Assembly: GCA_025399215.1 (NCBI GenBank)
Contig: MU621144.1
Location: 1 to 64,000, forward strand
Direction of reading: 5' to 3'
DNA from: Globomyces pollinis-pini
Taxonomy: Eukaryota > Chytridiomycota > Chytridiomycetes > Rhizophydiales > Globomycetaceae
DNA: 64,000 bases
Shown: piece after piece, positions 3,540-58,569 of the stretch
Layout of the letters: each line of letters starts with the position of its first letter
How positions within the stretch are numbered: position 1 is the stretch's first letter
Notes under the pieces: generated by a model
Told to the model about the DNA's origin: nothing
The model's database searches: none
What the model saw: the letters and a program-made list of their open reading frames with translations, nothing else
Program-made: the position numbers and the translations under genes

Positions 3540-3863
3540 AGATTTACTATTCTATCGTTGCTTGGCAAATAAAACCATTTTTTACTGTTCATTTATTGAT
3601 AGCTTGTATCTTTTACGGTTGGCATATGTATCACACAAAACGGACCTTGAATTGATCTTGTACTTTCAAATGGTTCTAAAGATAAACATTGATATGAATG
3701 ACAAGTCTGACTTGAATTGATTACTCACTCACTCCTTGACTTATGAGTAAGATCTTGAAGATCGGCGTGACTCAGAGTGCACGTCCCCTTCAAGCATACA
3801 TAGATCAGGTTTGCCATCACTGACTTTTCATTGAATTTTCCAACCAAACCAACTTTGAATCAA

Positions 3864-5105
3864 ATGCAATTTGAGGGATTACCGGTAGAAATCCTAGAAA
3901 CTATCACCAGTCATTTAAACATAGCTGATTATCACAAAGTCCGAAATTCATCTGTCAAATTAAACCTTCCAGTAACACCGACTCTCTCTTGGCAAGCTTA
4001 CCAACAATCCGTCATCATTTCTAAATCATTCTGTATGGTCCATGTCTGCTCACCAATCATTGATTGTATCAACCAATATCGATTAGAAACTCTTTATACT
4101 GATCAACATTATCAACTCGTTCAAGATTACATTTCAAAAAATCAATCGAAAGTCTCTTTAAAAATACAGCAAGAATTATTTTTTAGATCTGCAATGGATG
4201 GTATCGTAAAATTAATGAAATTGTTGTTGAAGAATCCATTATTGGATCCATCTGCCCGTGACGACTATGACAAGCGACTAAAGTCTAAACATATCTATTC
4301 GGAAGCCATCAGAAAGTTGTTGATGGATACAGTCAAATCAAGTGTAGATGAAAATGATGCGATATGTTATGCAGCCACTAATGGTCGTGCACAAATAGTT
4401 GCTTTGTTGTTGGCTGATGATAGATTGCGAACAACAAACCTTCAAGATGCATTGGGTTGTGCTGCTACTAACGGCCAATTAAATTGTGTGATTCATTTGA
4501 TGGGTGATAGTCGGATTGATCCTTCATATGATGATAACAATGCTTTATGTTGGGCAGCTGTTAATGGACATCATGAATGTTTGGCTTATCTATTGACGGA
4601 TCATCGTGTGAATCCTGGTATTGATCGAAATTATCCTATTTGTATTGCTGCCCAACATGGCCATACTGAATGTATTCGGGTTTTACTAGCAGATGATCGA
4701 GTAGATCCAACAGCAAGAGATAACTATCCTGTTCGTATTACTGCTGAAGATTGTCATATTGCAAGTTTAAGTTTATTGTTACAAGATCCAAGAGTTGACC
4801 CTGCTGCTCTCGATAATACCCCTGTTGTCTATGCAGCCGAGCAAGGACACACGAACATCTTGAAACTTCTATTGGAACATCCAAAGGTGGATCCTTCTGC
4901 TCAAGATAACTATGCAGTATGTCTTGCTGCTGCAAATGGGCATTCAGAATGCTTGAAACTTCTACTAACCGACGCTCGTACGGATCCGACAGTAGATAAC
5001 GACTACCCTTTGAGGTTGGCAAAGCGTAATGGACATTATCGTTGCTTGTATGTATTGAAAAACGATGAACGAATTCGAGAATTTGCTGAATTATATCTGC
5101 GATAG
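3864..5105 (+). CDS. F-box/ankyrin-repeat protein 1
   Basis: A single exon encodes 413 residues. The N-terminus carries an F-box-like motif (LPVEILETITSHL, residues about 6-18) and the C-terminal two thirds is a run of ankyrin repeats with the consensus D.RVDPS..DN....AA..GH.ECL.LLL. The combination suggests a substrate adaptor for an SCF ubiquitin ligase. Two relatives lie in the window (31278-32192 and 56074-57690), sharing the F-box, a short non-repeat linker and the same repeat consensus. ATG 3864 is chosen because it places the F-box at residue 5, as in the relatives; an in-frame stretch upstream has no ATG. Some repeats are degenerate, for instance the AED.H repeat near 4740. Substrate unknown. 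Confidence 0.85.
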   Translation: MQFEGLPVEILETITSHLNIADYHKVRNSSVKLNLPVTPTLSWQAYQQSVIISKSFCMVHVCSPIIDCINQYRLETLYTDQHYQLVQDYISKNQSKVSLKIQQELFFRSAMDGIVKLMKLLLKNPLLDPSARDDYDKRLKSKHIYSEAIRKLLMDTVKSSVDENDAICYAATNGRAQIVALLLADDRLRTTNLQDALGCAATNGQLNCVIHLMGDSRIDPSYDDNNALCWAAVNGHHECLAYLLTDHRVNPGIDRNYPICIAAQHGHTECIRVLLADDRVDPTARDNYPVRITAEDCHIASLSLLLQDPRVDPAALDNTPVVYAAEQGHTNILKLLLEHPKVDPSAQDNYAVCLAAANGHSECLKLLLTDARTDPTVDNDYPLRLAKRNGHYRCLYVLKNDERIREFAELYLR

Positions 5106-31148: not shown

Positions 31149-31277
31149 TCAAAATGAGAAAAAAATGGATTCAAAACAAGGTGAATATTTACTTTCCAAC
31201 CAAGTACATGTGTAACTACTACCAACAAGTACATACTTGCATAGTCACTTTGATATAGTGATTCTTTGGTATAATTT

Positions 31278-32192
31278 ATGCGAATTGAAAAACAAATTTT
31301 TACTCCCATGATTGACAATTTACCAGTTGAAATTCAATTACAAATTTCTTGTTACTTGAATTACCATGATTATCACCATCTTCGTTTGGCTTCAAATTTA
31401 ATGTCAATTCCTAAAATACCTTCCTTAATTTGGGATTCTTACTTGTCTTCTACTAACTCTTTATTAAATATTGGTATCACTAACATCAATGATTTATTAT
31501 CACTGAAATGGGATTCCATTCAAAATGATCATTTAGAAACTTTATACAATCATCATCAAACTAACCTTTTATGTAAATATATCACTAAAAATTTAAATTC
31601 AATTTCAATGGATATTCAATACGAATTGTTTTTTAGATCTTGTATTGATGGAAATTCAATACTTTTATCAACTCTTTTATTGAATACAAATTTAGATCCA
31701 TCAGCTAGTGATAATTTTGCAATTCGACGAAAATCAAATATCAAATATTCATCTGCAATTCAAGAGTACTTATCCGTAGATCCATTAGCTGATGATATCA
31801 ATGATGGAATTTGTTTTGCAGCAACATCTGGACATAGTCATTGTTTATCCATACTACTTCAAAATGATCGATTGAAAATGAAGAATGTAAATGATGGATA
31901 TTGGTGTGCTGCTGCATATGGACATTTGGATTGTTTACAAATTCTACTAGATGATAAAAGAACAAATCCATGTGGTGATCATCATTTCAATTCGGCAGTA
32001 AGAAAGGCGGCTGAAAATGGACATGCTGATTGTTTGGCTTTACTCTTATCGGATCCTCGAGTCGATCCGGCCATACACGATAATTACCCTCTCCTTTTGG
32101 CATTGAAAAATAGACATTTGGATTGTATTCGATTGTTGGAAAATGATAGTCGAGTGATAGAAGCATTTGATACTGATACTGGTTTCTTTTGA
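31278..32192 (+). CDS. F-box/ankyrin-repeat protein 2
   Basis: A single exon of 304 residues. The F-box-like motif NLPVEIQLQISCYLNYHDYH comes first, then a linker, then about five ankyrin repeats with the family consensus GH.DCL.LLL.D.R..P. The linker and the sentence-like phrase YELFFRSCIDG correspond to QELFFRSAMDG in the gene at 3864-5105, proving close relationship. It has fewer repeats than its relatives, so repeat number varies by whole units. ATG 31278 is the first in frame; a second ATG at 31308 would begin nearer the F-box. Likely a substrate receptor of an SCF ligase. Confidence 0.85.
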   Translation: MRIEKQIFTPMIDNLPVEIQLQISCYLNYHDYHHLRLASNLMSIPKIPSLIWDSYLSSTNSLLNIGITNINDLLSLKWDSIQNDHLETLYNHHQTNLLCKYITKNLNSISMDIQYELFFRSCIDGNSILLSTLLLNTNLDPSASDNFAIRRKSNIKYSSAIQEYLSVDPLADDINDGICFAATSGHSHCLSILLQNDRLKMKNVNDGYWCAAAYGHLDCLQILLDDKRTNPCGDHHFNSAVRKAAENGHADCLALLLSDPRVDPAIHDNYPLLLALKNRHLDCIRLLENDSRVIEAFDTDTGFF

Positions 32193-46849: not shown

Positions 46850-47921
46850 ATGAGGCTTGGTCAAAACAAATCATCATTGTCAATCTACTTGTCATTTATG
46901 AACTCAATTCCATTCGAGATTCTATCAGAAGAAAGAGTTAATGAATTAGAAGATTACGTGGATCTATTGATTTCTTCAAATCTCTCAAATTTTCCGAATG
47001 ATAATTTATTAGTCGAATTACAAAAAATTAAGAAATTAAAATTCACTAGAATTCCAAAACCAATTCCATTTGGAACATCCGGTTGTGTCACTAAAAAAAT
47101 TACCACCATTCAGAATTATATACAACTTTTATCGTATAATTATTTAGGTTTGATTAGATTTATAACACTCTTTAGGTGAATATAAATCGGATCTAATTAT
47201 TCTTCTTAGGTTTGCCAATACATTTAACAATCATTCATTAGGTACGCGTTTTTAAACTTTTCTAAATCATCTAAGGTTTGTCTTTATCAATTAAATGTAA
47301 ACAAAAATAGGCGATCCTTTCTTTATAATCAAAAAATCATTTAGTATTCATAAACTATGTCGTATTGCTCAACAAATGGTATCTGCATCATTACCAATCA
47401 AATGTTTGGAGGCAGTAGTACTAGGGATACAACAAACAATGAATTTAGAAAATTTAGATCGGATCAGTAATCAATCATATGTTCATCATAGCATTATCCT
47501 TCAAATCGGTATGTGATGGAATTGTTTATCGTCATATCGTATTGGTTTTGAAATATTTTGATAAATGGGGTGCCCTTGGACTTTCAAGAAGACCGGATTT
47601 AATGAATAAAACTTTGACTTATAGGGTAATTGATTCAGTACTAATTTGAAATAGACATTATCAGATCTCATACATGAATACAAAATATGTTATGAAAATA
47701 GTATTATTCAACAAATTAATGCTTTAGATTTCCATAAATTACTTAAAGTGAAATTAGGATGGCCAGTAGCTCATAATTTGGCCAGTAATGAAGCTCCGAC
47801 TTGGAAGGTTCTAAATTGATTTACTCTAAATCTATAGCATACTTGTATTTATATCCAACAACCTTGGTCAGATGTAATGAAAGAGGTGGATAGTTACTGC
47901 AGACTACTTCGATCTCGCTAA
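46850..47921 (+). CDS. VASH: vasohibin-like tubulin tyrosine carboxypeptidase
   Basis: Joined exons show the vasohibin core: TRIPKPIPFGTSG, IQNYIQLLSYNYLGDPFFII, SASLPIKCLEAVVLGI, SFKSVCDGIVYRHIVL, KWGALGLSRRPDLM, then LLKVKLGWPVAH and APTWKH. The non-canonical triad residues are all present: Cys (codon 47403-47405), His (47533-47535) and Ser (47584-47586). Introns are 47148-47310, 47467-47491, 47626-47654 and 47808-47837; removing them gives one frame to TAA 47919-47921. Start is ATG 46850 or ATG 46898. Vasohibins, with SVBP, cut the C-terminal Tyr from alpha-tubulin; no SVBP gene is seen here. The first intron is 163 nt, four to five times the usual length, and has an extraordinary internal structure. 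Confidence 0.92.
47148..47310 (+). other. five head-to-tail minimal introns at one intron position
   Basis: The interval divides exactly into 47148-47175 (28 nt), 47176-47209 (34), 47210-47241 (32), 47242-47275 (34) and 47276-47310 (35). Each unit begins GT and ends AG; four end TAG and one AAG. Most have a TAAC/TAAT/TAAA-like branch candidate. The units abut with no base between, giving AG/GT at all four internal junctions. Removing the whole block restores the vasohibin reading SYNYLGDPFFII. Unit lengths equal the normal intron lengths of this genome. Confidence 0.8.
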
Positions 47922-56073: not shown

Positions 56074-57690
56074 TTAATTGATTCCAGAATGCGTCTTCTT
56101 GATCATATATTCCACCATTGCTGCAACACATTTTAAATGCCCTTTATCAGTGGCTGCATGAATGGCATAATTTTTGTTAGCCATTGGATCGATCCTAGGG
56201 TCAGCTAAAAGCAATTCCACACAGTCAAGGTGTCCATTCCTGGCTGCCTGTTGAATGGCATTATTGTTGAAATCCGATGGATCTACTCTACCATCTCGTA
56301 ACAGAAAATATACACACGCAGCATGCCCCATTTGGCATGCTAAACGTAATGCAGAATTAGAAAGGGCGTTTGGATTTACCCTTCTGTCAGCTAATAAGAT
56401 GGAAACACATTTCACATGCCCCTCTAACGCAGCATTTCGAATTGCATAATTATCAAGTTCTGAAGGATCCACTCTTGAGTCTGACAATAGCAGTTCTAAA
56501 CACTCAGCATGTCCAAATTTTGATGCTACTAATACAGCATTGTTTCTAGCATCAGATGGGTCTACTCTAGGGTCTTCCATTAATCTCTTTACAGCTTTAT
56601 AATGCCCATTTTGTGTTGCTATTCTGATCGGGTTGTTCATATTGACAGCTGGATCAACTCTCGGATCAGTCAATAGTAATTCTATACAATCCAAATGTCC
56701 ATTCATGGCTGCCACTCTAATTGCGCAGTTGTCTCTTTCAGATGGGTTCACTCTACAATCATCCAATAATATCTTGACGCAATCAACATTTCCACGCTCA
56801 GATGCAATTCGAACTGCGTTATTGTCATTGACAGTTGGATCTACACGATTGTCTGTTAGTAGCAGTTTAACTATATCAGAGAAACCAAACATAGCTGCAA
56901 CACGTATTGCAATGTTATTATCCACTGCTGGATTGACTCTCCCGTCTTTCAATAGTACTTTTAAACATTCGAAATGCCCATTCTGAGTTGCAGCAATGAA
57001 TGCAATATTGTTTCGATCAGATGGGTCCACTCTTTCATCATCCAAGAGCAAACGAAGACATTCAAGATGTCCATGCTTAGCCGCAACTTGAGTAGCGTGG
57101 TTGTTTCTTGATGCTGGATTCACATTTTTACTATTCAATAGTAATTTTAGAACATCAGCTGCTCCATTTGTACATGCAATGTCCACCATCATAGAATCCC
57201 CAACCGATACATCTACCTTACAACGATTCACAAAGTATTTAAAGAGTTCAATCTGTTTCTTTTCAATCAATTGCTTCAATAGTAAATGAGATTTTATGTT
57301 TGATTGAAACTCTTTGTCCATGAGTATAATTTGAAAGAGTGACAGTAATCCTACATCCACTGCTTTATCAAAAATAACCTGTTTCCCATATAATGGCAAT
57401 GAATTGATGTTGAGTCGAATGTATTGCTCTACGATTTTATATTTACCATGATTTAATAATTTTAATGCTCGTAGACAATTCAAACTAGATACATCTGGAT
57501 TAATATGATTGACTAGAAAGGTGCATTGAAGTTTTTGAATTTCATTCTCATATGTATCCCAAGTTAAACTGACTGAGATGGGTAGATTAAAGACTGTACT
57601 GCTAAGTCTTAGATTTGTGTAGGTTTCTAAAGGGATGTAGCTACTTATCTGCTCTATAATTTCGATGGGCAATAGTTCTATAGTATGCAT
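56074..57690 (-). CDS. F-box/ankyrin-repeat protein 3 (long repeat array)
   Basis: ATG 57690 opens MHTIELLPIEIIEQISSYI, an F-box-like start. A non-repeat linker of about 130 residues follows, then about ten or eleven ankyrin repeats of 33-34 residues with the sharp consensus DPRVDPS..NN.AI..AA..GH..C..LLL. It is the longest of three such genes in the window. The repeats are very similar to one another, at protein and partly at DNA level, a sign of recent repeat expansion. Single exon. The reverse strand is open over long stretches within the repeats; this follows from the repeat codon pattern, not from real genes. Probable SCF substrate receptor; target unknown. Confidence 0.88.
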   Translation of the reverse strand: MHTIELLPIEIIEQISSYIPLETYTNLRLSSTVFNLPISVSLTWDTYENEIQKLQCTFLVNHINPDVSSLNCLRALKLLNHGKYKIVEQYIRLNINSLPLYGKQVIFDKAVDVGLLSLFQIILMDKEFQSNIKSHLLLKQLIEKKQIELFKYFVNRCKVDVSVGDSMMVDIACTNGAADVLKLLLNSKNVNPASRNNHATQVAAKHGHLECLRLLLDDERVDPSDRNNIAFIAATQNGHFECLKVLLKDGRVNPAVDNNIAIRVAAMFGFSDIVKLLLTDNRVDPTVNDNNAVRIASERGNVDCVKILLDDCRVNPSERDNCAIRVAAMNGHLDCIELLLTDPRVDPAVNMNNPIRIATQNGHYKAVKRLMEDPRVDPSDARNNAVLVASKFGHAECLELLLSDSRVDPSELDNYAIRNAALEGHVKCVSILLADRRVNPNALSNSALRLACQMGHAACVYFLLRDGRVDPSDFNNNAIQQAARNGHLDCVELLLADPRIDPMANKNYAIHAATDKGHLKCVAAMVEYMIKKTHSGIN

Positions 57691-58569
57691 ATTTAGAGAC
57701 CACAATTTTCGCGTTTTACTTGAAGTTAATGATAACCTACATTAGGGTTTATGATGAATAATATTCCAGTTTGAATTATTAGGAGATTCACTGCCAGATT
57801 AATTTTTCATGGAATTTAAAGGAATTAAAGTATATCAGGCATAACTCCTTTTGCATCTTAATTATCTTGGATGAGATTGGATTCTTTGGGTCACTGCAAT
57901 TGCGTTAGGAATCGCTTACTTTTTTTGGCAGTCAAATCTTCGCTAGATACTCTGTGAGAAACAGATTTAATGTGAACCAACAGAAAATTCAGACAACTTC
58001 GCCATTGGTGTTGTCGATTTCCACTAGTTGGTGGGCTTGACATCCTCCGACGGAGCTTCAAATGATTAGGTACTATGTCTTCATTGTACAAGAGTTCAAG
58101 TACCAACCTGCCAATCTCAAAACCATCATACGCGCTTTCCGATATCTTCTTATGGTTATATATATGTGGATCCAATCTTTGCTAGTTCGTGAATAATCTT
58201 TAGTTGGGGTCAGTTATTAATATAAATAAATTATAAACCGAACTATTTGATTATCTTAAGCCAAAATAGCATTTTCGCTTGTGAAAGCAAGAATGGACGT
58301 GTGTGTGGAAGAGAGATAACCATTATTGATTTTATCGATCAATTCATAATAGAATGTACAACTGAAGAAAATAATCATTCAACATTCATTATATTGTCTT
58401 GTATAAGTTAACTCACCCCAACTGATGTACACACTGCTTTATAATCCCACACAAAAGAGCTTTAATGTCATAAATGAATCAATGAATTTTGACAAGTAAA
58501 GAAAATTAAGTCTTCATTGTAATTAATCAAGAGTAACAAATCTGCCAGTTAAAACCAAATCTATAACCA
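57691..58569. other. gene-poor stretch with an unassigned open frame
   Basis: About 880 nt. On the minus strand 57891-58175 is open for about 94 codons, but it lacks an ATG near its beginning. It shows no family pattern, though DGFEIGRLVLELLY looks protein-like. It may be an exon of an unrecognised gene or a remnant. Confidence 0.35.

Follow-up and report, generated by a model that had tools for sequence, protein, structure and literature searches.

The window, by which we mean the whole stretch of 64,000 nucleotides analyzed here, is the start of contig C55 in the 18.5 Mb assembly of Globomyces pollinis-pini, a chytrid that NCBI classifies under Chytridiomycota, Rhizophydiales. It contains a gene for a vasohibin (tubulinyl-Tyr carboxypeptidase-like) protein, in which the first coding exon is followed by a stack of abutting intron-like units (Table 1). 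The initial annotation described this block as five complete minimal introns joined head to tail at one intron position, and the five-unit block is real: positions 47148-47310 divide with zero remainder into GT...AG units of 28, 34, 32, 34 and 35 nt, and all four internal junctions read AG/GT as claimed. A fifth AGGT lies at the 5' edge of the block, where the upstream exon ends in TTAG. The earlier expectation of about half an AGGT per 163 nt agrees with our computed values, which range from 0.42 (window, plus strand) to 0.59 (shuffled block), and none of 20,000 dinucleotide-preserving shuffles of the block, with the terminal GT and AG fixed, could be split into GT..AG units of 23-40 nt.

Table 1. 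Features of the vasohibin gene around the intron stack (positions in the window).
Feature	Position	Strand	Description
Vasohibin (tubulinyl-Tyr carboxypeptidase-like) coding exon 1, as modeled	46850..47147	+	gene model, homology
Unit 1 of stack	47148..47175	+	28 nt, GTTTG...TTTAG; strict YTRAY absent in range (ATAAC at 11 nt)
Unit 2 of stack	47176..47209	+	34 nt, GTGAA...CTTAG; CTAAT branch-point-like, A 14 nt from end
Unit 3 of stack	47210..47241	+	32 nt, GTTTG...ATTAG; TTAAC branch-point-like, A 15 nt from end
Unit 4 of stack	47242..47275	+	34 nt, GTACG...CTAAG; strict YTRAY absent in range (CTAAA at 11 nt)
Unit 5 of stack	47276..47310	+	35 nt, GTTTG...AATAG; strict YTRAY absent in range (GTAAA at 11 nt)
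Vasohibin exon 3' of stack (DPFFIIKKS...)	47311..47466	+	gene model, homology
Ordinary single intron, vasohibin gene	47467..47491	+	25 nt, gene model
Ordinary single intron, vasohibin gene	47626..47654	+	29 nt, gene model
Ordinary single intron, vasohibin gene	47808..47837	+	30 nt, gene model

Among the stacks of this genome, the one in the vasohibin gene is a weak example. Four of its five donors are not GTA (GTT, GTG, GTT, GTA and GTT in units 1-5), the scores of its units fall between the 8th and 25th percentiles of those of ordinary introns, and a strict branch-point motif in range is confined to units 2 and 3, with units 1, 4 and 5 lacking it. None of the five unit lengths is a multiple of three, so that retention of any single unit would shift the reading frame. 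A repeat search of the region showed units 1 and 3 to be 70% alike over 30 nt, while a tandem repeat finder reported no repeat there and no pair of vasohibin units exceeded the 99% level of between-stack similarity.

The ordinary introns were characterized with a gene finder self-trained on the window and 200 kb of contig C1 (264 kb in all), which called 680 introns in the 94 gene models that reached a score of 15, corresponding to about 3.3 introns per kb of coding sequence. Most are 23-37 nt long with a mode of 28-29 nt, the acceptor is TAG and the donor is GTA in 85-87% of them. The claim that the units have the size of ordinary introns, for which a range of 25-36 nt had been given, is thus borne out by the gene model, and the mean length is 29.4 nt for stack units (n=277) versus 28.6 nt for ordinary introns. 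Longer single introns of 45-315 nt also occur in the gene models, and a 79-nt intron lies inside the gene for a ubiquitin-conjugating enzyme (E2) that also carries a five-unit stack. In the models of the window and C1:1-200000, a small second intron class of about 71-86 nt can be discerned, together with scattered introns of up to 315 nt. Stop-free introns accounted for 28 of the 194 ordinary introns of length 3n, versus 94 of 214 and 69 of 197 at the other lengths, with the caveat that gene finders tend to call stop-free 3n introns coding; the scarcity would fit selection via the decay of mRNAs with retained introns. By eye, the window further appears to encode several ankyrin-repeat-like proteins with similar N-termini (3804-5105, 31275-32192 and 56074-57741), possibly a local gene family.

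The gene finder permits exons of zero length without rewarding them, save through the AG of the exon context. Among the 594 internal exons, 14 were of zero length as compared with 1, 0, 0 and 0 exons of length 1, 2, 3 and 4. When the exon-side splice context was removed from the model, nine zero-length exons were called versus 1, 0, 0 and 0 for the same four lengths, and five stacks were found instead of seven, the vasohibin and CLK stacks dropping out. Four of the 594 internal exons measured exactly 5 nt and none measured 2, 3, 4, 6 or 7 nt; those of 5 nt are possible micro-exons.

The initial annotation proposed a search of the same genome for further introns concatenated through AG/GT, and many were found, so that the vasohibin stack is not a one-off. 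A pattern of three TAGGT words at a spacing of 18-32 matched 95 + 119 = 214 times in the whole genome, as compared with about 2.5 matches expected from the density of TAGGT. A control with the reversed word, TGGAT, yielded 143 matches, against an expectation of 67 given its higher density. Because this control is not frequency matched, the matched word TAGGA, which is slightly commoner than TAGGT, was added and yielded 14 matches with 3.2 expected. The shuffles and the TAGGT versus TAGGA counts rule out a chance origin of the stacks. A different pattern, GT-N15-AGGT, was rejected as a stack detector because it is too loose, and some TAGGT chains turned out to be coding tandem repeats, for example on the minus strand of C1 at 93694-93766 in the 200-kb sample.

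The first 100 of the 214 matches represent 64 places, or by proportion about 137 places in all. We examined 59 of the 64; three more fell inside the window and C1 sample, and C25:24956 and C83:57880 were left out. A stack was present at the match in 57 of these 59 loci, 47 of which were delimited by the gene model and 10 by hand. Locus L080 was rejected as coding (a WD repeat, by eye), and L043 has a stack, yet away from the pattern match. The 57 pattern loci, seven stacks from the sample and five extra ones supplied a set of 70 stacks with 277 units and total block lengths of 53-285 nt. The stacks have two to ten units each: 2 (n=14), 3 (16), 4 (20), 5 (9), 6 (6), 7 (2), 8 (2) and 10 (1), counts that do not reflect the natural size distribution since the pattern search favors stacks of at least three units. 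L021 and L069 are stacks of eight units. Simple scaling of the seven stacks in 264 kb gives about 490 in the genome (about 200-1000 by our own Poisson estimate), and their number is probably several hundred.

An apparent preference for GT at the start of the exon after the stack was dismissed as a selection effect. It was seen in 9 of 14 stacks of at least five units in the first set and sample, versus 11% of ordinary introns, but the first loci had been chosen because they contained many TAGGT matches. Counting by eye in the second set gave 3 of 18 stacks of at least four units and 11 of 35 of all sizes, and for short stacks the TAGGT pattern itself favors a GT after the stack. An AG at the end of the exon before the stack was found in 6 of 14 cases versus 33% for ordinary introns, which is not a clear excess.

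Apparent traces of how the stacks have grown are visible in a subset of them. In 11 of the 70 stacks, the likeness of at least one pair of units exceeds the 99.9% level of between-stack similarity: units 2 and 3 of L022 are identical and its unit 8 resembles unit 1, and five of the six 27-nt units of L023 are near copies. Neighbor-unit similarity was 0.216 versus 0.141, above all 3000 permutations, and without the 11 similar-pair stacks it was 0.166 versus 0.138, still above all 3000 permutations, although part of the similarity outside the 11 stacks may reflect regional base composition. For the first 25 stacks minus four similar ones, the corresponding value was p = 0.023. Genome searches with single units, allowing up to three mismatches, placed a unit of L022 at two sites, a unit of L023 at three and vasohibin unit 3 at one, all of them in the home stack. 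Searches with the whole vasohibin and L022 blocks, using a coarse first filter, returned self-matches only and no dispersed copies genome-wide. Likewise, no clear dispersed families were seen among 605 sampled introns, where the best pair scored 0.75.

The 605-intron comparison, the three unit searches and the two block searches gave no support for a dispersed mobile intron, and to that extent the earlier suggestion of repeated insertion of mobile units is not supported. Since similar units are confined to one stack and copies are local only, local tandem duplication fits better than a dispersed element, and the best reading is that the stacks grow at least partly in this manner. In 59 of the 70 stacks neither process has left a clear trace, and stacks like that of the vasohibin gene, the units of which show no clear resemblance, may have arisen by independent insertion of unrelated introns. 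We considered the hypothesis that the stacks arise from repeated insertion of unrelated introns at a splice junction, for example through reverse splicing and reverse transcription, with stepwise excision. Such insertion yields exons of exactly zero length, and it would agree with the 59 stacks that lack a clearly similar unit pair and with the absence, among the 594 internal exons, of lengths of 3 or 6 nt as a possible residue of sloppy duplication. We nevertheless regard it as somewhat unlikely, since donor copies elsewhere were found for none of the three units (up to three mismatches) or two blocks, the sampled introns gave no sign of clear dispersed families, and neighboring units resemble each other beyond chance expectation even where a stack contains no similar pair.

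It is rather improbable that the stacks go back to longer ancestral introns that were subdivided by mutations creating internal AG/GT sites, as proposed for stwintrons. A stepwise model of splice-site gain exists for the stwintrons of Lipomyces, as outlined in PMC7138796, and splitting would account for stacks with dissimilar units. However, it requires that several AG/GT sites and branch points arose at intron-length spacing, and it leaves the near-identical units in L022 and L023 unexplained.

The manner of excision can be approached through the branch points. The 5-mers enriched in ordinary introns are YTRAY-like (TTAAC, CTAAC, TTGAT, CTAAT), and we used as a criterion a YTRAY motif with its A located 7-16 nt from the 3' end. 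This was found in 366 of 605 ordinary introns versus 934 of 7946 random GT..AG pairs, and in 151 of 277 stack units versus a mean of 51.5 of 277 in shuffled units. The rate in internal units (78 of 137) is near that of ordinary introns. The branch point is absent from the pattern by which the stacks were found, although the acceptor profile does reach 10 nt inward. As a population, the units have the features of U2-type introns with regard to the donor, YTRAY, the YAG/AAG acceptor and ordinary spacing. Internal branch points would be expected to erode if splicing used the outermost sites alone. This expectation is our chief reason for favoring stepwise excision, and it carries less weight if the units were recently inserted from elsewhere.

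The contrary hypothesis is that a single reaction removes each block as one intron, joining the first donor to the last acceptor, and that the internal sites are relics or cryptic. Single introns of up to 315 nt in the gene models and the weak internal donors of the vasohibin stack speak for it. However, unused signals should decay, whereas the internal motifs persist (58 of 106 internal units) even when the 11 stacks that contain a similar unit pair are set aside, and unit lengths track the ordinary intron distribution. We consider splicing in one step to be doubtful. Of the readings considered, the stepwise splicing of a stack through zero-length exons, as suggested in the initial annotation, has the best support, and the pattern recurs throughout the genome.

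If the blocks are introns, their removal should leave intact proteins, and six spliced proteins do align without a gap across their own stacks. In the vasohibin gene, removal of the full block restores the conserved sequence as claimed, YNYLG-DPFFIIKKS being gap-free versus human VASH1, for which structures have been solved. The junction is gap-free in 8 of 10 aligned homologs, or 8 of the 9 that cover the site, since P0007 begins downstream of it; P0020 lacks one residue two positions past the junction. Units 2 and 3 jointly comprise 66 nt that are open and in frame, for which reason the self-trained gene model retained the pair as an exon, but that they represent a regulated exon of 22 codons is highly improbable, given that none of the nine homologs covering the site carries an insertion at the junction and that the total lengths of other stacks fall in all three classes modulo 3 (8, 11 and 6 of 25). 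Among the best 120 of 183 matches, no public protein is identical to the vasohibin (window 46850-47921), unlike another gene of the same assembly that does have a database protein; the public annotation may thus omit the vasohibin gene or give it in altered form.

The other five proteins are a PHYHD1-like protein (L022), which is gap-free over ten units and 285 nt, the E2 enzyme and a SAMHD1-like protein, each gap-free at a five-unit stack, a CLK kinase with a five-unit stack inside the HTDLKPEN motif, and a kinesin with a two-unit stack inside the P-loop. A search with the E2 protein at too strict a cut-off gave four matches, none of them from the G. pollinis-pini genome. By eye, we take L067 to be a histone deacetylase with a six-unit stack, L058 an RNA-binding protein resembling CstF-64, L051 a kynurenine aminotransferase-like protein and L068 Cdc5 with two stacks. 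The Cdc5-like protein of L068 (G000:C67:66800-67800) is a splicing factor, and its apparent stacks of three and two units lie close together. A public Globomyces pollinis-pini protein, P0121, equals the L022 protein except for an insert of 19 residues, which corresponds to L022 units 4 and 8 read together (G000:C12:42085-42369) and is absent from the relatives in Boothiomyces and Batrachochytrium (64-66% identity). The insert is a probable annotation error; should it have RNA support, it would speak against complete excision. Gene models that lack zero-length exons may often misread stacks.

Taken together, the block in the vasohibin gene is likely to consist of five complete spliceosomal introns that are stacked head to tail and excised singly, and stacks of this kind probably grow in part by local duplication. 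Each unit would be a minimal intron with donor, branch point and acceptor within 23-40 nt, and the spliceosome would pair adjacent sites across one unit, taking out the units singly with exons of zero length between them. Removal of any unit would leave AG/GT or exon/GT intact, and with AG/GT at every joint the final mRNA is logically the same whatever the order of removal. As extra units would leave the mRNA unchanged, stacks could grow at little cost, through local events that copy a unit beside itself, after which the copies would diverge while selection retains the splice signals. The likely failure mode would be retention of a unit. We infer that excision is stepwise, that order is immaterial in the cell, that duplication is the main source of the units and that the cost is low.

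Recursive splicing has reportedly been observed in yeast by Lopez and Seraphin in 2000. In Drosophila and vertebrates, it proceeds stepwise through a juxtaposed acceptor and donor, AG/GT, with no exon left, according to PMC8605326 and PMC5126111, the former of which also states that intronic recursive splicing in Drosophila requires a cryptic exon. PMC6616335 lists abutting U2 introns that undergo recursive splicing among the classes of complex intervening sequence, citing work on animals. Like such ratchet points, the stacks have directly juxtaposed AG/GT sites, and according to the protein alignments nothing of them remains in the coding sequences of the six genes, the public P0121 being different. 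Unlike ratchet points, which lie mostly in long introns, the stacks form blocks of only 53-285 nt, with segments of 23-40 nt and up to ten of them consecutively, for which pairing across the intron is expected.

The stwintrons of ascomycete fungi combine several complete introns at a single position and are removed by consecutive reactions, as described in PMC7138796 and PMC12403724. Several complete introns likewise share one position in the stacks. However, in a stwintron a splice element of the external intron is disrupted by the internal one, and two nested introns must be removed in a forced order, inside-out, whereas stacks consist of 2-10 abutting units with intact ends, for which the order of removal should not matter. 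Introners, or introner-like elements, are many introns gained in one genome through copying, as described in PMC9860276. The stacks also suggest that many introns were gained by copying in one genome, but introner copies are dispersed over genes, whereas similar stack copies were confined to one stack (605 introns, three units, two blocks). In the AGGT tandem-duplication model, one intron is made from a duplicated stretch of exon; in the stacks, by contrast, it is apparently the intron that was duplicated. A tandem genomic duplication with AGGT that provides the splice sites, and thereby leads to intron gain, is covered in PMC4974935. We found no report of stacks or arrays of minimal (23-40 nt) AG/GT introns in the open-license literature. 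Thus, abutting recursively spliced introns are already known as a class, and arrays of 23-40 nt introns may be new.

The stacks are of relevance for annotation, since a self-trained gene model and one public model each retained stack units as coding. Intron gain is an old open question with few visible intermediate states, and this one genome offers an apparent series that runs from single introns through pairs and near-identical tandem units (L022, L023) to diverged stacks. We lean toward the hypothesis that introns in this chytrid lineage behave like satellite repeats, with tandem amplification at low cost owing to the order-independent removal of abutting units, arrays that lengthen themselves and routine recursion of up to ten reactions per junction. 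If so, introns would be gained without a gain of intron positions, and an exon junction would undergo up to ten recursive reactions with sites paired across tiny introns. The stacks would offer a natural test case for the recursive splicing of minimal introns, well away from the long introns in which the process is studied, and for the question whether the order of splicing matters where the product is independent of it. An intron copied next to itself would represent a little-known route of intron multiplication.
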